Source: Cinnamomum chago
Taxonomy: Eukaryota > Streptophyta > Magnoliopsida > Laurales > Lauraceae
DNA length: 64,000 nucleotides
Direction of reading: 5' to 3'
Assembly: GCA_038049695.1 (NCBI GenBank)
Contig: CP142452.1
Coordinates: 107,083,001-107,147,000 of the forward strand
Shown: positions 35,133-55,219 of the stretch, in pieces
Layout: each line of letters begins with the position of its first letter
Numbering within the stretch: position 1 is the stretch's first letter
Position numbers and translations under genes: made by a program
The notes under the pieces: generated by a model
Told to the model about the DNA's origin: nothing
Database searches by the model: none
What the model saw: the letters and a program-made list of their open reading frames with translations, nothing else

Positions 35133-36300
35133 CACAAAATAAAAGGGAGAAGTATGATCTATCAATTATCCATAATATAATATATAGGTCATTAAGTATT
35201 ATTAGTGCCTATTTTTATTCTAATTTACATTATGTCCATGAAATATGGTCGATCCCCATAAAAAGCAGAAGTAGGCTTCTGGCAGACTTAACACCATACA
35301 TATTGGCGGTAGATTTGATATTATAAGATTTCCTCTACTTTAAAGGGAGGAAAAGTTGTCCGTCATATAATTCTGTTTGATTTTAAAAGATTTTCTCCGC
35401 TCTAAAACGAGGAAAAGTTATCTACCATATAACTCTACATTATGGTTGATTTTGCAACATTTCTTCTACTGTAAAGTGAGGAAAAGTTGTCCGCCATATT
35501 ACTCTACATACACTATATTTAATCTTACAAGATTTTCTCCATTCTAGAGAGAGGAAAAGTGCATAAACTAATAGTGCCACAAATCTAACAGCACATTTGT
35601 GTGCATAAACCTTTTCCACATTCCACATAAAACCAAGTCCATAATATAAAAGGGAAATAGGCACACAAATCAAAAAGGAGAAGTATGATCTATTAATTAT
35701 CCATAATATCATATATGGGTCATTAAGTATTATTTAGTGCCTATTTTTATAATAATTTACATATGTCCATGAAATATAGTCGGTGCCCATGAAAAGCAGA
35801 AGTAGGCTTCTAGTATGCTTATCACCATATATATTGACAGTAGACTTGATATTGCAAGATTTCATCTGCTCTAAAAGGAGGCAAAGTTGTCTGCCATATA
35901 ACTCGAAATTATACTTGATGTTGCAAGATTTCATCCGCTCTAAAGGGAGGAAAAGTTGTTCTCCGTATAACTCTATATTATGCTTGATTTTGAAAGACTT
36001 TCTCCACTCTAAAGCAAGGAAAGTTGTCCGCCATATAATTCTTTATTATGCTTGATTTTGCAAGATTTCCTCCGCTCTAAAGGGAGGAAAAGGTGTCTGC
36101 CATATTGAAAGATTTTTCCGCTCTAAAGCGAGGAAAAGTTGTCCGTCATATAACTTTACATTATGTTTGATTTTGCAAGATTTCCTTCGCTCTAAAGTGA
36201 AAAAAAGTTGTCTGTCATATAACTTTATATTATGCTTGATCTTACAAGACTTCCTCAGTTTTAAAAGGAGGAAAAGCACATTTTCCACGTTCCACATAAA
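35133..36300. repeat. Higher-order tandem repeat with 68-bp hairpin units
   Basis: Two large copies (35133-35660 and 35665-36300). Each begins with about 190 bases of similar sequence (gagaagtatgatctat, tgtccatgaaatat, aagcagaagtaggcttct), then runs of a roughly 68-bp unit: about four units in the first and seven in the second. Each small unit contains tttcctccgctctaaaggga plus ggaaa, a short hairpin, followed by a gttgtccgccatata motif. Both large copies end near ccacataaaaccaagtcc. No coding content. Confidence 0.85.
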
Positions 36301-38191: not shown

Positions 38192-39485
38192 GTAACTATA
38201 ATTGATGTTTTTATGTGCTTTTTAAGCCATAGGAACCAAGCTCTCTCTCTTCCATTGTTTACTTGAGTCCAGGGGTTTACTTGAGTCCAAGGGTCCGCCC
38301 CAGGTACAACCATGTGGAGGCGGTCACACCCCTTAGACCTCGGTCTGCTTATAAAACCATAATGAAAATTTTGGCCATGCTTTGAAAATTCACATAAAAA
38401 TCCTGCATCGTTTCACATGGAAATTTTAGGTTCGTTCCCAAAATGCAACTAACTGTTTGGATATACACCCCTCAAATGAAAATCTTAGGTCAACCACTGC
38501 TTGAGTCCATGTCCATTTTGGAAAACTCTTTCCGAAGGAGAAAGAGGAGAGAAGAAGAAAGATGGGGAAAGTGACATTCATTGATTTTCTCTTCTATTGA
38601 AGCTACCCATTAGTTCCATCTTTCCATGTCCATTCCTAATTCTATCATTTATTATGACTCCCGAATGTCAATAATAACAAGATGTATTTCGATTCCTTGC
38701 TCTGGCATGTAACACAATTTTGAAGTCTGAATTGCCGTGGGTGGATATCATGTGATAACAACTGATAGGTAGCTTGTTGGATTCCACCTTTGCATTTAGA
38801 ATTGTGTATCTTAATTTAATATAAAATAAGTCAAAATTGAAAGGAACCAAATCAAAATTGACTCCAAAGGAATCTAGTCAAAATTAAATCCAAAAACCTC
38901 AAAATTAATACATTATAATGGAAAATCTGTGACAGCATAAAAGTCAATGTTGGATAGGAACATTTTGCTACAATCCGACCAATCCTTGAGTTGTGAGCCC
39001 CCCTCGATTCATCCAAGCAATAGGGTAGTGTGGGATTCGGAGGTATCATTTGAAATTACTATTGAGTGGGACCCACATGAGCAGGCTCTGATGAATTTAA
39101 CAGCCCCAGAGTTTTAATGTTTTTCTTTTTAGTGCACGTGTGTAACTGCAACTCTTGGGCTCCTTGACATGGAGAATGTTCTCCTCCTAATCCAGCTTTA
39201 TGGGGCCTACCTGGGTCCACCTTTGATCACCCCTTGATACTTTTGTCATCCAATGAGTTGTGAGCCCATATTTCTTTCATCATTCTCCACATTTTACATA
39301 TATAAATTTGTATGTGTAAAATATATTACTATATTTGTTTGAAAGCACTAATTTCATATGAATAAATGTCGACTCAGTTGAAAAAATCTTCATATATCTC
39401 TATAACTTTGAAAATTTAAGTGGGCAGGGCACTTTTCATATATCTTATTAGCTTTGAAATTCTTTTTTTTTTCTTTTTAACCTGA
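38192..39485. other. Intergenic region, nothing recognised
   Basis: AT-rich, no convincing coding region, RNA gene or terminal repeats. Short open frames here lack codon-like composition. Confidence 0.5.
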
Positions 39486-39690
39486 CACTACACCAAAAAT
39501 CGGAAATTGGAACGGAAAAGCGTTCCTAATCCTTCCGTTCCTAATCCGTTAAAGTGTTCCAATTTCCGTTCCAATTTGGATTAGGAACGGTTCGTACCAA
39601 ATTGGAACGGAAATTGGAACACTTTAGCGGATTAGGAACGGAAGGATTAGGAACGCTTTTCCGTTCCAATTTCCGATTTTTGGTGTAGTG
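39486..39690. mobile_element. 205-bp CACTA-type foldback MITE, copy 2
   Basis: Starts CACTACACCAAAAATCGG, ends TTTTTGGTGTAGTG, with a perfect 3-bp target duplication tga on both sides. The interior is a near-complete inverted repeat of ggaacgg/ccgttcc motifs, as in the copy inside RLK-B. The CACTA ends are canonical here and diverged (CACAA) in the other copy. Confidence 0.93.
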
Positions 39691-41367: not shown

Positions 41368-44300
41368 ATGGATTTCATGAAGGTTTTCGATCAAGCAGTC
41401 CGAGAAATGTGAGTTCTTAAAGCCTTTGGATCACGATTTTCTTTTATCGTTATTATTCTCATTCTTCATCTAATGCTCGATCGAATCTGTTTCTATGATT
41501 TTGTATGAACTTTCTTTGCAGTAAGAGGGAGGTGAACATTAAAGTCCTTAAGGTTCCTGAGATCGAGCAGAAGGTAAGTGATTTGTTTCCGGAATTTAGG
41601 TTGATTGCATTGGTTGATTTAGATCTGGTACTGTTCTTTTGAATTTTGAAGTTAGGACTTAAGATCTAGAGGTATAAGGAACAAAATAGAAGCGTTTCTC
41701 CAGCGCTTGATTGATCAGATCCCTAAATACTAATGCCTGCTTTGGCCATCAAAATTGATCTTGAGAATTGAAATAGGAGGAGATGGTCGAATTCAAACAG
41801 GAACAGCAGAATCAGAAACAGAACAACAGAATGGACCCTACTGTAAAAATCTGAAAGCATTGTACCAATAAATTCTTTTCCCATTACAGTCTAAGAATAA
41901 ACTTTATATCTGGCCTTAAATGGAACAACCTTGTTTGAACTAGAACTTTTTTCCCCTGAATAATTTATTTGTGTCATAAAGATCACAACATTGTCACCAA
42001 AATGGAAGATCCAAGAATATTACCACAGTGAGAGTGGGTAGAAACCAAAGGTCATGAATTACCTTCTATACCTCCAAAACTGATTAGCCATATGAAAACT
42101 TGTTCAAGCTCGGGCAATTCAATTTAGCAAAAGAAGTAATCCATAAAATGAAAAAAAAAATAGAAAAAACCTAGTACTTTTAATGAATTTTGGCTGGACC
42201 ACTTGGCCTTGATTTAGTTATATTCAGTCCTTTTTCAGTCAACTTAGGAAATATATATTACAAAGTATTGTTATGTTTCTTATCTGTGAACATAGTAATG
42301 CTGACTTTTGACCTTTTGAATTGGTCAAAAGTCAGCTAAGTCCCTGTCACGACCCCGACCCGAGATCAGAGTCATTAGGGTTAACCTCCGGGTCGCGATG
42401 TTAATCATACTTACTCCCGTAGATCCGAAATAACCGAAGTTACAACGACTCTACAAGGGATCTTGCATACGTACCTGTCAATGTACAGTTTTGCGGAAAT
42501 AGATAACAATATACATTGACACCTATTTAACAAAATGAATCAGATACTTTACTTTGAACTGCACAGTTCACTTTACATCGTTTTGTTCTCCTACTATCAA
42601 CCACTGCATATTTAAAATACAATGCAGGGGACATCATTTACAATACCTACAATACCAAAAGGAATATCTAAAACAGTTTATAAAAAGTTCCCAAAAGATT
42701 TCAATGTGAACGCTCTCCAATCACGTCCATTCGGCTAGACCTCCTGGAGGTATCGAATGGGCCTCCTTCGCTGGCGGGACAGTCTCGGAGGGACCGGCAA
42801 GGGCAACTGAGCCTGTAATATCATCAGTAATACCGTGAACACGACGGTTCAACAAGGTATACATATATTTATGGCATGTTCATAATTCCTAGCAATTCAT
42901 TGTTTAACAGTGCTAAACAATTCATAATAAACACAAGTAATAATGACAATAATATGGCAACTACACTAGCATTGATTTCAACTTCATTTAGTCCTTCCCA
43001 AAAGGAAGTATTTCATATTCATTCATTCATTCATTATGTTCCATATTTATTAATGGCTTTTCCATGTATGACTTTTCAGTCAATGACCTTTCGGTCCAAT
43101 AAGGTGGGATCTCCCAGTGTCTTGATCAGAGATCACTGGTGTCACCACGGGCTCCGGAACACCCCAATCTCATCTACTGCAGTAGAAATAGTCATTTCAT
43201 TCATTTCTTATTTCATTCAGTTCAGTGCAAGAATGAGTTCGGAAACCACTAGGTAGTGCCAGACCTGTTAACAACTCTTATTAATCTCAGTCTAATTCTA
43301 AACCAATCCTCTAACCCACCCTTACGTGAACGGGGATTATTAATGCATGTATTACTGTCGATGACATTACTTTTAGTGAAATTGATGCATTAGAATAACC
43401 CTCGTAGCACTTAGGAAGACTTAAATACGATTAATATTAAGCTCTACGTGTAAACTTTTAATCCCGGAAATTCGAACTTAAAATACACTTTCCGGACATT
43501 TTTCAGTGGGCCAAGTCGACCTGGGCCATGTCCGGGTCGACCTGCAGTTGTAAGTAAAAATTCGGAACAGAATTTTGATCAGGCGCTAGAGGCACCTGAT
43601 CCAGTGTGCCCGGTCGACCAGGCCCTGCTGGCCGGTCGACCGGCCACACTGCAATAACAAAACATAGGTTTTGTTACATGCAGTGCAGTGAAGGGTTTTT
43701 CAACCCTTTTTCTTCCTGATGCCTCCTGAACTTAATTAACAATTAAAACATGCATTTAACAAAGAAATTCAAGATCAATAACTCCAACTAAACTACACTT
43801 ATCTTAATCTATTACACAACCTAATTAAGGTTCTAAAATCCATCAATTGTCCCATAAATCATTCTTAATAGCTAATTTAACATTTCTTTCCATTAAAACC
43901 CATACAAACTCCTTCACAAGCATAAACATATGTAAGTACTTGCCTTGATGAAGCTTAAACTCCTTGTTTAGCTTGGTTTTGAGATGAATTTCCTCCCTTG
44001 AAGCTTGAATTTCAATAATAATAAAAGAAGATGATGAAGAAGATGATGTAGACAACTCCTCTTCACTTCAAAGCACTTCAATTCACTCTTAAATGAAGAA
44101 GAAATGGAAAAAGAAGAAGAAACGGATGAAAGAAAGAAAAAGAAGATGAAAGTTGCCTAGGGTTTGAGATGAATGAAGGTCATTAGCTTATATAAGCTTC
44201 ATTTTTGCATTTAACTCCCATTAATTCTCTTTAATTCCAACTCAAGTCAAATGACGGTCCATTTGATCCGATAGTCATCGAATGAATTCAAGTCTTTTAT

Positions 44301-45089
44301 GAAATTTGTCGTCCTCGTAAAGATACACATGCGAGTATCAATACTTTCCGAATCCGATCAAATACGTACAATTCCGTATTTCCGGAAAAGTCCTTGGTTT
44401 GAATTCCATTTCTACTCAATTCACTTCATAAACTTAGTTACTATTTCATTAAGCCTAAATTCCTCATTTTAGACTAATTCCAATTCATTTGACGATAAAT
44501 CACCATTAGTTCATTTAAACCGGCTTAATTAATTTTAAGCTCAATTAATTAGAGTTAATCTGGATTAACTCGGGACGGAGCCTAATAGTCCCCCAGTTGA
44601 TTTAGTCCTGCAGCTTTTCGAGCTGAGTCTAGTTTTTGAATGCTCGACCATGGACTCTTTGAAGTGAGTCTTCATCGTGTGGTTGTGAATGTTTTATGTA
44701 TATATCTTATTTGTTTGTATGCCAAATAGATACTTGAACTCCTCGTTGGTGTTTCACTTGTTGTGTGTGTGACTTCAGCTTCGATTATTTATGTATTCAT
44801 TTGCATTTCATAGGTTCTTGATGCAACAAGTGACGAACCTTGGGGCCCTCATGGATCTGCTTTGGCAGAGATTGCGCAGGGCACGAAAAAATTGTAAGGT
44901 CTAGCATATAGTGTCCTTTTTGAGTTCTATCCTATATATAATCTGGTTTCCCTATTCTGTGACTAGGAATTCGTGATGTGTTTCTTGCTGTATTAATATT
45001 GTGGCCACAGCACTGAATGCCAAATGATTATGAACGTACTCTGGACAAGATTGACTGATACTGGGCGATACTGGCGTCATGTCTATAAG
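41368..45089 (+). CDS. Epsin / ENTH-domain clathrin interactor (EPSIN1-like), first four exons only
   Basis: Exons 41368-41408, 41522-41573, 44814-44893 and 45011-45089 join in phase to 84 codons with clean GT-AG sites. They encode the N-terminal half of an ENTH domain: M-D-F-M-K-V-F-D start, then the D-E-P-W-G-P-H-G motif, A-L-A-E-I-A and the V-L-W-T-R-L...W-R-H-V-Y-K helix. Epsins bind phosphoinositides and clathrin in vesicle traffic at the Golgi and vacuolar route. The second half of ENTH and the Ser/Gly-rich tail were not found downstream to the window end; the next plus-strand gene is an unrelated kinase. The exons themselves are undamaged and the promoter looks normal, so it is either a 5' gene fragment or a gene broken by rearrangement within 45090-47900. 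A product ending in the intron would not be a functional ENTH domain. Confidence 0.85.
42345..44587 (+). mobile_element. Probable 2.2-kb solo LTR in epsin intron 3
   Basis: Starts TGTCACGACCCCGACCCGAG and ends CGGAGCCTAATA, flanked by a 5-bp duplication gtccc (42340-42344 and 44588-44592). TG...TA ends are non-canonical but known. Size and opening sequence suit long Ty3/gypsy LTRs. No coding domain lies inside. It takes up most of intron 3. Confidence 0.6.
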
Positions 45090-45454
45090 GTGATACTTTC
45101 TTTTTCTTTTTTATTTAGACACGTGTGCACACTCATGATTCAATGAGCACATCTTGCCACAAGTACCTCCTATCTAGATCCCACCTATAATCAATCAACA
45201 CCATCATACTAAATAATTATCTAGACTGGAGTAGTTTGAAGCAATATGCTAGATTGTGGAATTACAGAGAACGTGTCTTTTAGGGCATGTTTAAGCGATG
45301 ACATTTCCACAGAAAGTTCAAAGTTTTTCGTAGATATAGGCTAATCCAATGTTTTGCACATAAATTATCTGTGAAATAAAATTGAAACAAAACTGCAGTT
45401 TTCAAGATTTTGAAATCCAAGAAGGATCAAACTTGTGAAACCACAAAAGCAAAG

Positions 45455-45765
45455 AAGAGTTCACATTAACTCTTACATCCCCCTTCCAAACAATGCTTCA
45501 GTAGACTGTACACTGTCCAGAGCGGTTGTATCTTCTTTCACATTAACACTAAATATTAACACTAATAAAAAAGGAGTTCACATTGACTCTTGCATCCCCT
45601 TTCCAAAAAATGCTTCGGTAGACTGTACACTGTCCAAAACGGTTGTATCTTCTATCACATTAACGCCAAATATTAGCACCAACAAAAAAGGAATTCACTT
45701 TGACTTTTGCATCACCCTTCCAAAAAATGTTTTCACCGATTCAACCAATACCAATTTCATTATTT
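45455..45765. repeat. 118-bp tandem repeat, about 2.6 copies
   Basis: Copies start near 45455, 45573 and 45691 with gagttcacattgactcttgc or close variants, and include agactgtacactgtcca and ggttgtatcttct. The third copy is partial. Spurious open frames across it reflect the repeat, not a gene. Confidence 0.88.
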
Positions 45766-47924
45766 GACGTCATAGTAGAGAGTTTTGGTGGGGAAGGTTT
45801 CGGCCCTTCACTCAGACATTTCAAAAGTTCAAGAGTTCGGACATTTCAAACACCTCAAACATATTTCAAACATCTCAGATAAATGGAAACTATTCACAAC
45901 ATTACAAGTTCATTGTGTCTTGACCTTACATTTCAAAAAATATATGCATAAATCAGTTTGAAAATTACAAAAATCAACTCCACTCATGTTCTCTAATTCC
46001 TCTCCTTCAATATCTCTTAGTGAACAAAATCAAGGAAAGACAAACCCCATAACAGTAGCAGAGTTCTTTCGCATGAGAAAAATAAGATAAATGAGCGTGA
46101 AATCTCATTCTCCTTTCTCTTCGTCATTTCATCGAACACATTCATGGAAACTACCCAAATATCGACTATCCAAAAACACAGGTCTTATGATACAACCTCC
46201 ATCCATCCCTGCACCGCGCCTGCATCTCACCCTCTCCTTAGCACCTCTCCCACCCATCATCCTCAGGCGATCTTCTTCGCTTTTACGCAGGCGTCATTAT
46301 AACCCCAGTCATCATTCTGCTCGAACTCCGGAACAAGAGACCTCACCCCATCTTCATCACCTCAAATTAAAACTCATTCATTAGAACCCCAAACCATAAA
46401 AATCGAATTAAAAGTACGGACTCAAAAATTGTCGTTGAGGAAAAAGTTGTTCTTCTGCCGGTTTGAACAGAGAGAGAAGGAGTCAAAGATTTTATGGAAA
46501 AGGAGGGTCTGATAGAAGCTTTGAAGGAAAGTGAGGGTTTTCAGAAGGAGAGGGAGCCATGGAAATGAGGTGCGGGAGGAGTTTCGAAAGTTGTGCAGCC
46601 GCTGGAGCATGGGAAGATGGCGCCTATCTCGCAGCCATCTATCAGATCGCCAACGCAGGACCAGCGACGCCGCCCCTCCATTCCATCTTGCCACGCAGAA
46701 CCTGCAAGCGCCTCCCTTCCATCGTCACCCTTGCTGCCTGCACGCGTCCCGGATCGTTGTCTCACCTCTCTCGCCTTCTCTGTCTCCCATTCGCGGCACC
46801 CTGAAGGAGGCGTTCGTTCGCACGTCCACCATGACCAGCACCGGCATGCCCTCTCCATTTCTCTCTCGCAGCCGGACCCTCGTTCACCGAATACCTCTCC
46901 GAACCATCTCACACCCATCTACTATCTATCGCACCTGTTGGATGCCCCTCAATCATCATCCCCATCGCGGTGTCTCCTCCACTCTCGGCAGGGCCTCCTT
47001 GCTTCTTTCTCGACTTCCACAAATATCTCTCTTTCTCACCAAATCAAAAAATAACCCGTCTTTCTCTTTCATTCTTCCTCCTTTGTTCTGAGATTGATTT
47101 GAGATCGGCTGTAGAAAAAAACAGAGAACAAGAGAGATAAGAAGAGATGAATGAAGTTTCGGGTGGCGTTTTGTATGAGGGTCGATATCGACTATAGCGC
47201 TAAAAGAAAAAAAAAAAAAAAAAAAGAAACGTCAATTGAGGGCTCATTCTGTCTACCCTTTTTTATTAGGGCCAAATTAATTAATATGCTGTCTACCAGG
47301 GTTTTTTCCGTTAAATCCCCTATTTTTAAAGGCCTAGGGGTAAGTTTAGGGAGTTAAAGTGTGATTAGAAAAGGAGTTTTAAAATTAGGGCATGGCAAGA
47401 AAAAATAGGCACTTTACTGCCCATGCCCAAAGTGAGCAGTTAAGTGCCTAATTTTTAAGGTTGGTCAGCATGGGTTGGGCAGTGAAGGCATTTTCTGGCC
47501 CTTTTTTGAGAACGGATCTGTGGTTCAGGTGCACTTACTGGGTCAAACACAGGTTTTTAAGTATCCTACAGATTTAGAGAGTCTAAATCCAATCTAGACT
47601 CAAAACTTATGTAGATTAGGACTTCTGGGTCAAAATACCATTTTACTGCCCTTCACATTTTTTAATTGTGACAAGTGCTTCAGTCAGTTTTGATGGCCGT
47701 TATAGGGTTCTTACACTTTACCACTGATCTCATGGGTGGCAAAGTGGGTCCCTTGGGATTCTCCAATTTGGGCCACTAAATGATGCAAGAATGCAAACAA
47801 AACAATATTACAAACAACGAAATAATTAAGTAAACTCAAGGTACATGAAAATGTGTCCATCAAAGGTTAGGTCCACTCAAGATTAATCGTATGGTCAAAA
47901 TCAATATCATCTGGGATCAAGTCC
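45766..47924. other. Region between epsin fragment and kinase array, with a GC-rich segment
   Basis: No recognised protein. 46540-47060 is clearly more GC-rich than its surroundings and open in several frames on both strands (for example 46531-47091 plus and 46918-46541 minus), with Ser/Pro/Arg/His-rich low-complexity translations. It could be a captured gene fragment inside a DNA element or an old CpG-rich 5' region. A poly-A run is at about 47205-47224. No terminal repeats could be paired around it. Confidence 0.4.
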
Positions 47925-50376
47925 TTACATTATGTCATCCCCTGAAGGTATGTCCTGTAATCAGGAACCTATTCCGGTCCATTTTTAGGTAGTGTTTAGA
48001 TCAATATACGCTATGGGTCTATCCTAAGCCAGGCCCATTTTCATTCCCATTTTTGAGTGGCAGTGTATTAAGAACATGAAGTTCATCTTACATTTTATGA
48101 ACATATTTATGTAGATCCTGTTGTCGAGGTCAGTAACGCAAGCGGTCAATTGCTCTATGTAGATCAACAGATTACATCCCCTGAAGGTATGCGCTGTAAC
48201 AGTCCATTTTCAGATAATGTTGTTATCTGGGTACAATACGGGTCCATCGTAAGCCTAGCCCGTTTTCATCCCCATTAGTTTTTGAGTGTTTTTTTAGGGC
48301 AGTGTATTAAGAACATGAAGTTCTTCTTACATTTTATGAACATCAACAGATTACATCCTCCCAAGGTAAGTCCTGTAACTAGAAACCTAGTCTGGGCCAT
48401 TTTTAATGGTGATAATATATGGGTCCTTCCTTATCCAAATCCATTTTCATCGTCATTTTGAGTGGCACTATATTAAGAATAGGAATTCATCCATCTTACG
48501 TTTTATAAACATTTTTAAGCAAATCATGTTGTCGAGGCCCACAGAACAGGCAGCCCATTGCTCTTTGAGGTTCAACAGATTACATCCCCTGAAGGTATGT
48601 TTAACTGTAACCAAGAACCTATTCCGGTCCATGTTCGTGGAGTGTTTTGGTCTGGGTACTATTTCGGTATGTCCTAAACCAGACCCGTTTTCATCATGGA
48701 CATTTTTATGCAGATCCAGTTGTGGAAACCAATAATACAGGCGATGCATTGCTCTCTGAGGGTCGACAGATTATATCTACTAATGGTATGTCCTGTTGGT
48801 AGGAGCCTATTGCGGTTCAAATTTATACAGTTTTCTATTTGGGTATAACATGGGCCTGTCCTAAATCAAACCCGTTTTCAACGGGGGTTTCATTTATTTA
48901 TGAGGTTCCCTAGAATATATCTGCTGCAGGTTTATCCCATAAGCAAGAACCTATTTCAGTCTAGCTAAGTTGAGGGATGTCAGGAATACAACTTTATTAG
49001 AATTTCTTATAAAAATTTGATTTCGGTTAAATATGTGTCCATCCTGACCCAGACGATCGAGTCTTCATCCCCATCTTTTAGTGGCAACCTGTTACAGGAA
49101 GATGAATTCATCTTACATTTTATGTAACAATTTTTATGCAGATACTGTTGCCGGGGCCAGTAAAATAGGCGGTTCGTTGCCCTCTGAGAGTCGACAAGTT
49201 ACATCCGCTGAAGGTATGTCTCATAATCAGGAGCCCATTTCAGTCCATGTTCAGGTAGTGTTAGATCCAGGTACAGTATGTGTCCGTCTAAAGCCAGACC
49301 CATTTTCATCCCCCTTTCCAAGTGGCAGTGTGTTAAGAACAGGAAACTCATCTTACATTTTATGAACATTTTTTTTTACAGATCCTGTTGTCGATGCCAA
49401 TAATATAATTGGCAGGCAGGCCATTGCTCCTTGACCAGGAACCTATTAACATGTATTATTTTGATCCGGGTAAAATATGGGTCCAATATCCTAAGCCAAG
49501 GGTGGACCCAAGTATGGGCATGTGGGTGCAGTTAAACCCTTCAAATCCCATTGCATTTCCAAAATATATATATAAAGGTTCTAGATCCACTTTAAAAAAT
49601 TCAATATTAACTGTGGGTCCTCCTTCAAAATCTACATGAAAATCCGCAATTTGCCCACAAAACCAAACTATCTAAGAGTTTGCATTCACTGTGCTAACTC
49701 ATACCTGTTTTCATCCCCATTTTCGAGTGGCAGTGTGTTAAGAACAGGAAATTCATCTTACATTATTTTACAGATCCTATTGTCCCGTTGCTCTCTAAGG
49801 ATCAACGAATTACATCCACTGAAGGTGTCTTGTAACTAGGAACCCATTCCAATATCTGGTAGTGCTAGTTGAGGAGTGGGCTCCGCAAGGGGGAGTATTA
49901 AAAGTATTTATGTTGACTCTATTATAAATCGAGGTTTTGGTAGGAGTTCGAGTCTCAAATAAAAAAAGAAGAAGAGGAAAATACGTTAATGGTTAGCTAA
50001 GGAAACTTAATAGTGCTTTTATCTATCTACAATATTGTTCGGCCCTAAGCTAGGCCATTTTTATCTCCATTTTTCTCGGCAGCGTACTAAAAAGAGGAAT
50101 TCATCTTCTATTTTATAATTGCCAAGTATATATTAACAAGGGCAAAAAAGTCCCAGAATGGGACTTTCATCTTACATTTTATGAATATTTTAAGCAGATC
50201 ATGTTGTCAATGAAACTGGCAGTTCGTTGCTTTCTGAGGATCAATGGATTACATGCCCAGAATGTATGTCCTATAACCAGAAACCTACTTCTGTTCAGGT
50301 TCATGTAATGTTCTGATAGGGTAATGTATTAAGAACCTTAGTTAAGCTTTTACACTTCATGAACATTTTTATGCAG
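47925..50376 (+). repeat. Tandem array of 72-nt exon-like units upstream of the RLK-D kinase exon
   Basis: Each unit is an intron of about 110-170 bases plus an exon-like block similar to the first 72 nt of the kinase exon at 50377. Copies: 3' stub ending 47946; A 48115-48186; B 3' stub ending 48365; C 48523-48594; D 48714-48785; E remnant about 48909-48929; F 49142-49213; G from 49382 (broken, no donor); H 49774-49824; I 50198-50263. A, D and F are 72 nt with acceptor (tgtag or tgcag) and donor (gtatg) sites. C is 72 nt but its acceptor reads gcaa. H is 51 nt with a weak donor (gtgtct). I is 66 nt. All six are open in the kinase frame and are phase 1-1. Common residues are D-P-V-V at the start, a central G, L-L and Q-I-T near the end. 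The G-H gap holds an unrelated insertion of about 190 bp. Confidence 0.85.
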
Positions 50377-53300
50377 ATCCTGTTGTCAAGGACAATAGAA
50401 CGGGCAGTTCATTGCTCTCCAAAAATCGACCGTTTACATATGACGAAGTCAGTGTTATAACCAATGGTTTCAAGAGATTCCTTGGCAAAGGAGCGTTTGG
50501 GAAGGTTTACTACGGCAAGATGACTGATGGCACTGAACTGGCCGTGAAGATGCTCTTTCCACAATCGGTCAAGTTGCTCTCTGATCTCTCCAAACAATTT
50601 GAGAACGAGGTTAGGCTAAACCATTGCTTTTTATTACCAATGATGTGATCATTGCATGCTTGGGGCCTACGTTTAATCTTGGCTATCAATTATAAGGATG
50701 ACAAGAATAAATGGCCAACATGAAATGTCCATGGATGATGGGACCCATCACTTGAATGACAAGTCGGGATCCACAGAGGCTTTGACCCACGATGAGCCAT
50801 GATCATCATGGGTCAACAGCCTTAGAGGATCACAATTCCTTGAACGACTCATTATAATTGGTTGTCGCGGCGAGAGTTTGACATACAATAAGGTTGGCAT
50901 GTTCATTGCAGGCCCAGCTCTTGATGAGAGTTCATCATCGAAACTTGGTCCCTTTTATTGGCTATTGTCAAGAAGGTGACAACATGGCTCTCATATACGA
51001 GTACATGGCCGAAGGAGACTTAGGGAGCCATCTGTTAGGTACCCACAACCTTCAGCTTCTTACCCTATTTCCTACTGCTACTGCTAGCTAGTGAAGATAA
51101 TATATAAAATACTAATAATAATGGATAGTAACAGGCAAAAAGGGCAATTCAATAGCTCTGAATTGGGACCAGCGACTACATATAGGATTGGATGTTGCAC
51201 AAGGTTAACAAGACTGAAATTAAAAAAAAATTGGCTTTCTTTTACTTTTGTTTTGTACTAATGGTACAATGGCTGGTTTTGAGTTTGTGTGTGTAGGATT
51301 GGAGTATTTGCATGATGGTTGCAACCCACCCATAATTCATAGAGATATAAAGACGGCCAACATCCTATTGAATGAAAGATTCGAGGCCAAGATAGGGGAC
51401 TTTGGGTTATCCAAGGTCTTTCTGAAGTACGATGAATCCAGCCACATTTCAACAGGAATCAAGGGAACCGAAGGATACATCGATCCAGAGTACGTTCTTA
51501 GTCCCTTGAAAATGAATTTGCTTTCATTTGCCTTGCAACCGAAACTTTGTTGATTTCTTTTTAGGCCATGGTTTTTTGTACATGGTGTTTAAGAGACTTA
51601 CAAACGTTGATGAGAAGGAAACTACCCATTTGAAAGTCAGGCACAGACGGCTCTTCTTGTTTTCATTCACATTAGAGATTGTAAAACCATGAAGAATATT
51701 ACAGACTTAACAACCTACAAATTCTCACCCGTGCAAAATTTTGTCCCGGGCACCAGCAGGACCATCACCATAGGTGAGGCCCCCCTAAATTTTAGGGGGT
51801 CTCGTATGACGAATGGCGCCCATGCACAGTGCACAGTAGAAAATTGTCCAGTAGCAGCACTACTACTTTTCATGTTGAATGTGAACTCCAGTAGCAGTTC
51901 CTAGGGGTGAGAGAAAACCATTAACCAAACCGAAACATCGGTTTTCTATTTTCCCAAACCGAACTGAACCGTCCAGGTGCTCAAATTGATCAGAACCGAA
52001 TTGGTTCGGTTAGGATTTTTTTGTTTTTTATTTTATTTTCACAAAAAAAAAAAAAAAACTGCATTTCAAACTTGGTCCATCAAATGGAATGAAGAGAAAC
52101 TGTAATGAACACTAAAATATATTTCATAATTTGTTTTAACCAAGGAAGCATACATCAAACGATGGACGAACTCTTTCCATCCATCATCCGGTTGCGTGAT
52201 TGAATGAACCAAGGCAGGTTCAGCCAACTTTTTAGGCCAATGAGCTTAAGTAGTTCAAGTCTTTTGGTAAAATACACCAATAAAATGGTCATGTACTTAC
52301 CTATTTCTCTGTATAAGACCTAGACCAGACTATATTGCTTGATCTAGACTAATGAATTTAACACAAAAGGAACTATTTTTTTATTTATTTTTTATTGTTG
52401 CTAGCAAGATGGGTTCGAGTGGAATGTAGCCCTAATTTTGAACTAATTGAGATGAGATTCTTCATAGTTCACTTTCTATTAGGTTAGACCAAACCCTTGG
52501 ACAACGCTACTAAAAACCGAATAATGCACACTTCTTGTAGAACTTTCATCAACCATGTAACATGCAAATAGAACATACAAGCGCTTCATCTAATGCTAAA
52601 ATAGTTAAAACTCAATACTCAAGTTAATATATACGGTCAGTTCGGTTTAGGCGGTTAACCGTGGGTTTGGACACATAAAAGATTAAAGAGAAAGAAAACT
52701 TTAGGTACCTTGGATCAATGGTGCAACAGGATGGAGAGAGTGATACTGATATAAGTCATAGGATTCAGGCCGGGTGGACCAAATGGAGTAGTGCTTCGGG
52801 GGTCTTGTGTGATCGGAAAGTCCCCCTCGAAGTTAAAGGAAAGTATTATAAGGTAGCGGTACGTCTAGCGTTGTTATATGGATCAAAGTGTTGGGCAGTA
52901 AAGCATAATCATGTTAAGAAGATGGAAGTTGCGGAGATGAGAATGCTAAGATGGATTTGTGGGATCACAAGGAGAGATAGGATTAGGAATAAAGAGATTA
53001 GGGGCAAAGTAGGAATAGTACCAATTAAAGATAACATGAGAGAAAATCGACTGAGATGATTCGATCATGTTAGAAGACGCCTAACGGAGGCACCTGTTAA
53101 AAGGTATGAAAGCATAGAGATTGTCCGGAGCAGGAGAGGGAGAGGGAGACCCAAGAGAAGTTAGAAAAAAACCATTAAACATGACCTTGCCTACATGGAT
53201 CTAACGGAGGATATGGCCCTAAACAGATTTGATTGACGTCGTCAAATCCATATAGCCGACTCCACCTAGTGGGAAAATGCTTGGTTTGGTTTGGTTTGGT

Positions 53301-53981
53301 TCAGTTTAGGCCGTTAACCGTGGGTTCAAACCAATAACCGACCGATGTAAGGCGGTTTCTAAGATTTTCAAACCGTTGATCGAACAGATCTATATAAAAC
53401 CGATCTGAACCACCCGGTTCGATCGATTCAATTTTGTTTTGCAGTGATACTAGGTTTTTTGTACAACCCTAGAAGTTTCTACATAACCAGCAAGACCTCC
53501 TTTTGAGGGACTAGAATGGCACCACAGGAACATATTTTTGGTCTCGGTCGTTAGTGTAACTAAATGAGATTTGGATATAAACAATAGAATAGAGTATATG
53601 ATGTCTCCTAACAGAACATACTTACTTCTCTTAATATATATATTTATATATGAAAATATTCATGTGCATCTATCCCTCACCACATTATGGTGAGGGACAA
53701 CATAGTGGGGCCACTTTATGATTCATCCAAATCATCCACACACATGAAACTCGTTAAATTACAATGGATCAATTAAATTTTCATTAATCGGAATGGATTG
53801 GACCGTTGGATTGAGAGTCAAAATTTTTCTTTAATATAAAGTCATTAAATTTGTTGGCCATGGACGAAGGGGCTAGAGACTTGGAATTGATTTCAAAGTT
53901 GATATATGGTCTCATCTCATATGATTCTTTCCATCCCCTAAGTTCCATGGTCGTGGGCCCCATTGAGTGTTGCACGCATGA

Positions 53982-54026
<45 letters not shown>

Positions 54027-55219
54027 CAGACTCTCCTAAGCTTAAGCTTATGATAAGATTCCGTAAACTAATAGTTCTGAGGCTTACCCTTGGTCCATCC
54101 AAATGGACTAAACACACGACCCCCCTAAATTGCACATATCCACCAATTTTTGGTTAGATCGGAATTTACTAGACTATTGGATCGATTCTGTACGGATCCA
54201 AATAGACCGTTGACCACTAAACTTTTGGTGCCCAGATGGAGATGATTAAAATACGATTGAGGCTGATTTTTTTTACAGAGATGATGGTCCAACGGAGTCC
54301 TTGAAATCCCCCATCCCCATACCCATGCGGGTCCCCAGGTGGGCCCCACTACTTAATTGAGCTGGCCCCCCTGTAAATATATATATATATATAACATTTT
54401 TTTTTAATGGTTCTCTTAATATTTTTTTTCTATATGTTAAATTTACACTGTTGACTGAATGCTTTTATAATACATCAGAGATGACTTTGAATCTCCACAG
54501 CTCCAGGCGCTCTTGACAGAACATCCATGAACAATTTTTCATGATATGATTGGCTGCAAGAAGACTCGGTCATTTAGTTGCAGAGTTGGACAGCCCTTTA
54601 CTGTTGTGATACGACTGGTTTGTGGACTAGGATTGATGGGTCAGTGAGCCCAACTGCTCTACGGACCCATGGGATGAGCAGCATGTTTCACTGAACACTG
54701 GGCCTGCTTGTAGATATTACAGGCTGTGCAGTTGAGGATTCTACATTTCCTCCTCTGTTTTTAGAGGACCTTGTTTGTACTTTGTAGCCATAACCATCTT
54801 CTTCATCATCATTAAGGCCTTTGCAATGTGATTTGTTCAGAGCCAAGTAGCTTATATAGTGTTTTTTTCTGTTTAGGTACGACACTTCCAAGCATTTGAC
54901 AAAGAAAAGTGACGTCTATAGCTTTGGAGTTGTTCTGTTTAGGCTAATCACAGCCCTGCCCGCAACTATCCAAAGAAATGGCACTGACAAGATAGATTTA
55001 GTTGATTGGGCAAACCGTACAATCGCACAGTTGGAAGGTGTCCATGACGCTGATTCCCTCAAGAAAGCAGCAGAAATTGCCCGACTATGCACGTCAAAAA
55101 AATCCGAAGAGAGGCCGAACATGTGCGAAGTTGTATCCAAGTTGAAGGATTGTCTGGAAACTGAAGCAGCTGCTGAGAGGATCAGGGTCTTAGTTAATGT
55201 TGAACAACAGGTGGAATGA
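50377..55219 (+). CDS. RLK-D: LRR-RLK-type protein kinase region, ectodomain not found
   Basis: Exons 50377-50609, 50912-51038, 51135-51203, 51297-51489 and 54877-55219 join in phase into 320 codons plus stop, entering in phase 1. The second to fourth exons have exactly the lengths of those in RLK-B (127, 69, 193). Motifs: F-T-Y-D-E-V, glycine loop G-K-G-A-F-G, catalytic Lys in L-A-V-K-M, H-R-D-I-K, D-F-G, and G-Y-I-D-P-E-Y. The C-lobe lacks about ten residues around the usual G-D-I-x-x-V-D segment, and the tail is short. No membrane or malectin/LRR exon was found upstream; instead the 72-nt exon array precedes it. Intron 4 is 3.4 kb and holds a hAT-like element with a nested LINE. The reading frame is clean, so it may be expressed with a different N-terminus, as a cytoplasmic kinase or through exons further upstream. 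Confidence 0.85.
50782..50815. other. Short perfect-arm hairpin in RLK-D intron
   Basis: The segment begins ttgacccacgatga and ends tcatcatgggtcaa, arms of 14 bases with one mismatch around a 6-base loop. A structural curiosity; the ttgaccc arms also contain W-box-like cores. Confidence 0.6.
51902..53471. mobile_element. hAT-like non-autonomous element in RLK-D intron 4
   Basis: Ends TAGGGGTGAGAGAAAACC and GGTTTTTTGTACAACCCTA are a degenerate inverted repeat. Flanks gcagttcc and gaagtttc agree at six of eight positions, as expected for an old 8-bp target duplication. The ends are full of aaccgaac/ggttcggtt motifs. A LINE fragment is nested inside. Confidence 0.6.
52669..53299 (+). mobile_element. 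5'-truncated LINE (non-LTR retrotransposon) 3' end
   Basis: The translation from about 52700 to 53260 matches the C-terminal tail typical of plant LINE reverse transcriptases: the Y-G-S-K-C-W, E-M-R-M-L-R-W, G-R-G-R-P-K and L-T-E-D-M-A motifs. It contains stops (52 codons after R-L-R, and tga/tag elsewhere). It ends with a (tttgg)n simple repeat at about 53280-53299. Target-like sequence ttaggcggttaaccgtgggt at 52647 recurs as ttaggccgttaaccgtgggt at 53306, giving a target duplication of about 27 bp. Confidence 0.85.
53472..54876. other. Rest of RLK-D intron 4
   Basis: Contains an (AT)n run at about 53983-54022, a hairpin ccctcaccacattatggtga plus ggg near 53672, and a possible MITE between tatggccagactc (54020) and gagctggccccc (54359), set in ta-rich flanks. 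The acceptor for the last exon is tctgtttag at 54868-54876. No coding sequence. Confidence 0.5.

Follow-up and report, generated by a model that had tools for sequence, protein, structure and literature searches.

Tandem 72-nt exons ahead of a receptor kinase domain in Cinnamomum chago: a decaying array of probable juxtamembrane exons

Could the linker between the membrane and the kinase domain of a plant receptor be assembled from optional exons, and does the gene that raises this question still work? The question comes from a 64,000-nt stretch of Cinnamomum chago DNA (C2:107083001-107147000; contig CP142452.1 of assembly GCA_038049695.1), hereafter the window, which holds several malectin-like leucine-rich repeat (LRR) receptor kinase copies, a group that we take to be LRR-RLK subfamily I. 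One of these, which we call gene D, lies on the plus strand and bears a tandem array of short exons ahead of its first kinase exon. A sequence-only reading of the window had proposed that these exons form a frame-neutral juxtamembrane cassette, with a neutral minisatellite as the alternative. Having compared the array with its relatives across the assembly (1.06 Gb, 14 contigs), we favor, with a probability of roughly 60%, the explanation that the units were real optional juxtamembrane exons of an ancestral receptor and are now decaying. The copy in the window is very probably a truncated relic, and a working exon cassette in gene D is not supported.

The array consists of a 72-nt phase 1-1 exon with its own intron, present in ten copies (six open, four partial; numbered u1 to u10) ahead of the kinase exon at 50377. 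A search with a five-copy profile gave eleven matches in 47936-50463, the ten units and the kinase exon (E 9.8e-44 to 6.9e-10), which bears out the array itself and raises the earlier count of about nine copies to ten. In the rest of the window the only matches with E <1 were the kinase-exon 5' ends of the minus-strand paralogues A and B (10779 and 24378), and two more had E values of 3 and 8.7. Tandem Repeats Finder did not report the array, because the unit copies are too diverged. As the sequence-only reading had stated, the six open units lack stops, are phase 1-1 and have lengths that are multiples of three: u2 (48115..48186; DPVVEVSNASGQLLYVDQQITSPE), u4 (48523..48594), u5 (48714..48785) and u7 (49142..49213) measure 72 nt, u9 (49774..49824) 51 nt and u10 (50198..50263) 66 nt, all on the plus strand. 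Both AG and GT are kept by five of the ten copies, those beginning at 48115, 48714, 49142, 49774 and 50198, again as claimed; u4 has AA where the acceptor AG is expected. The partial copies, on the same strand, are u1 (47936..47947) and u3 (48350..48365), which are 3' remnants with a donor, the acceptor half of u1 being gone; u6 (48885..48929), a 3' remnant whose acceptor half is also gone; and u8 (49382..49434), which is decayed, with its donor gone and a 4-nt insertion. Unit donors fit the donor consensus at 6-8 of 9 places; for the donors of the kinase gene itself the figure is 5-6 of 9.

The resemblance of the units to the start of the kinase exon is real: it takes in the acceptor region and the first 72 nt of that exon, with the donor as its limit. 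An origin of the unit introns as decayed kinase-exon sequence was ruled out, as 36 comparisons gave a maximum z of 1.75, except for paralogue S versus u4 (z 3.3). The kinase itself is encoded on the plus strand by five GT-AG exons (50377..50609, 50912..51038, 51135..51203, 51297..51489 and, with the stop codon, 54877..55219), which yield an open frame of 321 residues that fits the kinase family; the domain matches PF07714 at 1.5e-46, and its homology is also seen by comparison with A, S and a locus on C8 described below as C8a. Within the last kinase intron, at 52679-53200, lies a frame that by eye resembles a long interspersed nuclear element reverse-transcriptase remnant.

DNA searches with u7 and a C8a unit, together with a donor-pattern scan (up to 3 mismatches: 12 matches; reversed control: 0), placed the array at five loci: gene D, C2a (C2:105.944-105.988 Mb), C2b (C2:106.828 Mb, in a chimeric locus at C2:106.803-106.843 Mb), C8a (C8:23.7346-23.7625 Mb) and C8b (C8:23.792-23.879 Mb). 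These searches score best candidates only, and more diverged arrays could escape them. In C2a, C8a and C8b, malectin, LRR and transmembrane homologues stand in the same order ahead of the array. In both C2a and C8a the transmembrane exon ends with G in phase 1 and joins the units in frame, and at both loci the units lie between this exon and the kinase exon; the anatomy, the frame, this position in full-length paralogues and the five loci are direct observations. C8a has three successive 72-nt open units, all with AG and GT, besides one decayed copy. In C8b, u3 (63 nt) and u8 (72 nt) are complete, whereas D has both in broken form; u10 and the kinase of C8b lie about 58 kb beyond u9. C2a contains u4-u8 twice. 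A scan of the C2 and C8 clusters for the acceptor-plus-DPVV pattern found 30 places, 8 of them inside the array loci already known. We read 18 of the remaining 22: the 18th was C8b's own kinase exon, and the other 17 had no unit in the 0.93-1.07 kb before the kinase exon. In the array-less members examined (A, B, S and 17 further loci), the juxtamembrane segment occurs a single time, in the first part of the kinase exon. Scanning the genome with one 15-base pattern (1 mismatch allowed) for a unit-unit junction of the kind that retrocopies would carry yielded no exact match. Of the cassette proposal, the anatomy, the neutral frame and the juxtamembrane place hold for the family, in C2a and C8a; for gene D the proposal fails, for the following reasons.

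On the plus strand of the window, homology searches gave no counterpart of the malectin, LRR or transmembrane parts, an unrelated new first exon being outside their reach; the malectin query that gave nothing there matches C2a at 1.4e-44. Since window positions 47321-47873 match a C2a stretch that starts about 640 bp after the transmembrane exon, gene D appears to have been cut off there, and 47321..47935 (plus strand) would be a remnant of the intron 3' of a C2a-type transmembrane exon, its left end marking the 5' truncation point. Upstream, on the same strand, lies a truncated epsin-like (ENTH) gene (41368..45090) with four coding exons, identified by a Pfam ENTH match, with exon borders and phase read by eye. 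Its donor is the sole coding donor found upstream of the array, and as its last exon ends in phase 0, the units and kinase would be out of frame behind it. A search with an epsin query of uncertain accuracy did not find the remainder of the gene. On the 3' side of the epsin fragment, at 45451-45732, lies a repeat whose copies are offset by 117 bp and are 87% identical over 165 aligned bp. Cut off and now placed behind the epsin fragment, gene D cannot make a receptor, and most likely it makes no functional product.

Gene D could instead be functional, with a new promoter and a product limited to the kinase, its units spliced as variable N-terminal segments. Its kinase exons are indeed open and family-like, and compared with C2a they show no frameshift and one indel (in frame, D's loss) where 12.3 would be expected from the surrounding DNA, or 8.5 without low-complexity places; the frame of D and C2a was therefore kept through much of their history. 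This intact frame argues against a long-dead gene and so counts against the relic that we favor. However, no phase-1 coding exon was found upstream in searches by homology, the epsin exon has the wrong phase, and kinase exon 5 lacks 30 nt, encoding a 10-residue stretch, that C2a, C2b and C8a share. The ratio of nonsynonymous to synonymous substitution rates (dN/dS) for the D and C2a kinases is 1.44 (0.77-3.07; not significant alone), as against 0.60 for D-C8a and 0.40 for A-S, the C-terminal part of A being unreliable and B having been left out because automatic annotation carried its exons 1 and 5 too far, as it did exon 5 of A and S. Taken together, we consider a living kinase-only gene D very improbable. 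Across the D and C2a kinases (50377-55219), nonsynonymous change per site exceeds synonymous change, not significantly by itself, although the D frame is intact.

Damage is not confined to the window. All five array loci carry a lesion, although assembly errors could account for some: D has no ectodomain or transmembrane part, C2a has a nonsense codon in kinase exon 2, C2b has two frameshifting deletions in the kinase, C8a has two nonsense codons, one of them in exon 3 and the other close to the C-terminus, and C8b has frame changes in the malectin exon, in kinase exon 5 and apparently in the transmembrane exon, where the match is split between two frames. Lesions also occur outside the array loci, as the similarity of A ends after ERPTI and 2 of the 17 array-less exons (L037 and L038) are frame-changed; the kinase of paralogue S is open throughout. 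The nonsense codons lie inside the kinase in both C2a and C8a, and both loci have placeable malectin and LRR segments, a transmembrane exon and several units that are open by eye, so either might still express a decoy-like receptor with juxtamembrane units and a truncated kinase. Single nonsense codons would equally be a first step of decay, or assembly errors, and we give such a decoy hardly any credence.

Were the units ever exons in use? The alternative is a neutral minisatellite of exon-intron units within an intron, never spliced and multiplied by unequal exchange, with the transmembrane exon always joined directly to the kinase exon. The history of the array offers this view some support, since parts of it were re-duplicated in C2a and exchanged between loci. 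Window positions 48173-49589 form a patch 97% identical to C2a, where other aligned parts of the array are 87-91% identical, and this suggests gene conversion between the D and C2a arrays. C2b retains a single unit. Its left flank matches the window at 97%, from the unit onward 842 bp are 99.9% identical to C2a and the sequence then continues at 96-98%, and an overlap of about 5 bp lies where the array shrinks to one unit. As its flanks match the window on the left and C2a on the right, C2b is a chimera.

Several features of the units are not what a never-spliced repeat would be expected to keep. In a set of 11 distinct units, conservation at the four columns of the splice dinucleotides is above that of random columns (P 0.0035; two dinucleotides P 0.0031), and none of the 11 contains a stop (P 0.033 by simulation under a simple substitution model). 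Net length changes in spliceable units are 9, 21 and 6 nt, all multiples of three, versus 12 of 58 indels outside open unit exons (Fisher 0.013). Indels in live unit exons numbered 0 against 4.64 expected between D and C2a (P 0.0097), 0 against 3.87 between D and C8b (P 0.021) and 0 against 0.59 in the 97% C2a block. Dead units other than u8 had 1 against 1.7, 0 against 2.1 and 0 against 0.5 in the same three comparisons, and u8 had 3, 4 and 1 against 0.7, 0.6 and 0.2. A first contrast of live with dead units (0 indels in 749 bp vs 9 in 535 bp) was discounted, as 8 of the 9 lay in u8, which is dead through such indels, and several pairs were mixed; the figures given here are from the repeat by pair with u8 set apart. 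These results suggest past constraint on the splice sites, stops and indels of the units.

A series of observations weighs against this interpretation. The set of 11 favors intact units: for u2, u3 and u8 the C8b version and for u10 the C2a version were chosen as the better kept, and the set omits u1, u6 and the decayed copies close to the transmembrane exon. The second C2a copy of u4, a unit open in D but without an acceptor, has a 7-nt insertion, and there is a 2-nt change at the u9 donor edge. The D-C2a and D-C8b indel comparisons share the D branch, and since dead units other than u8 are also indel-poor (1 in 264 bp, 0 in 133 bp), part of the deficit in live units may be compositional. Substitutions, moreover, look neutral: live unit exons differ at 26/324 positions between D and the older blocks of C2a and at 21/267 between D and C8b, 47/591 in sum, the same rate as in the array introns (121/1607 and 156/1930; sum 277/3537), and differences by codon position are flat at 14/16/17 (seven blocks, with the 97% C2a block and C2b left out). 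Dead units without u8 differ at 10/119 and 5/145. The dN/dS between units is 1.0-1.3 (bootstrap 0.72-2.10, seven units), and at present the amino acids of the units show no purifying selection.

We set aside unit dN/dS, the comparison that the sequence-only reading had suggested, as a decisive test. The homologous segment of the kinase exons has a dN/dS of 0.59 among A, B, S, D and C8a, and 1.00 among the array-less A, B and S alone; neutral amino acids in the units therefore say little either way about use. Frame-keeping deletions had been taken earlier as a hint of selection, or of recent origin. They may well reflect selection in the past, as may the length changes, indels and splice sites; at present, substitutions accumulate at the intron rate. 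The minisatellite thus accounts for the way in which the units diverge by substitution, and fits poorly with the scarcity of indels in spliceable units and with splice dinucleotides, open frames and lengths kept above chance, even if in better-kept versions. We consider it rather unlikely, and return to optional exons of an ancestral receptor.

On that explanation, an ancestral malectin-like LRR receptor kinase would have acquired tandem duplicates of one 72-nt phase 1-1 exon and its downstream intron, placed after the phase-1-ending transmembrane exon and before the kinase exon. Splicing probably included these copies one at a time or jointly, each lengthening the juxtamembrane linker by about 24 residues without changing the frame, and selection would have kept frame and splice sites in that ancestor. 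Unit exons differ from one another by about 27-31%. The unit introns of the D and C8a lineages are homologous, which puts the origin of at least one unit and its intron before the D/C8a split, across which the kinases (dS 0.37) were under purifying selection; nodes of the unit tree that separate one old array from two parallel ones have low support. The array lineage now appears to be decaying, with the window copy probably cut off about 640 bp downstream of the position of the C2a transmembrane exon and preceded by the epsin fragment. More tentatively, and with some doubt, this plant receptor kinase lineage may have had a true exon-cassette array, with up to about ten optional 24-residue modules that set linker length and sequence by splicing and were lost as the genes decayed. 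Provided that the units were spliced, the membrane-to-kinase linker of a plant receptor would here have been modular at the RNA level. Even as a relic, the array is a compact case of exons gaining, exchanging and losing copies, in which the dead copies serve as internal controls.

Around gene D, the window contains paralogue A (about 9-16 kb, minus strand), paralogue B (22-30 kb, minus strand), a receptor-kinase 3' fragment (36.8-37.5 kb) and a further receptor-kinase copy (59-62 kb, minus strand). At 35300-36280, similar segments with gaggaaaagttgtc-like motifs follow one another and cross-match C2b many times. A foldback element at 39485-39690, possibly a miniature inverted-repeat transposable element, matches C2b at two places and in both orientations.

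Among the open-access papers listed in our searches, no title or opening of an abstract names a receptor kinase with a juxtamembrane exon array, and two other gene families offer the closest comparisons. Brown algal ROCO genes have tandem 72-bp LRR exons of phase 2, for which diversifying selection and splice variants are reported, and a sizeable share of the family are putative pseudogenes (PMC11378527). The array described here likewise consists of 72-bp exons that stand in tandem and keep the frame, in a family of putative receptors with many damaged copies; unlike the ROCO exons, it encodes a juxtamembrane segment, is phase 1-1 and is known from genome sequence alone (PMC11378527). In grass Cenpc, an exon pair is reported in two or three copies, some found in full-length cDNA, with positive selection, retention of duplicated exons in a truncated pseudogene, and gain and loss among relatives (PMC549713). 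Both cases involve short exons duplicated in frame in a fast-evolving part of a plant gene; ours differs in having up to ten copies, known from genomic DNA, and in showing no positive selection (PMC549713). Among malectin-like LRR receptor kinases themselves, the array genes share the domains and kinase sequence of full-length paralogues and a transmembrane exon that ends in phase 1, but where array-less members have a single juxtamembrane segment, at the start of the kinase exon, these genes have a row of exons ahead of it.

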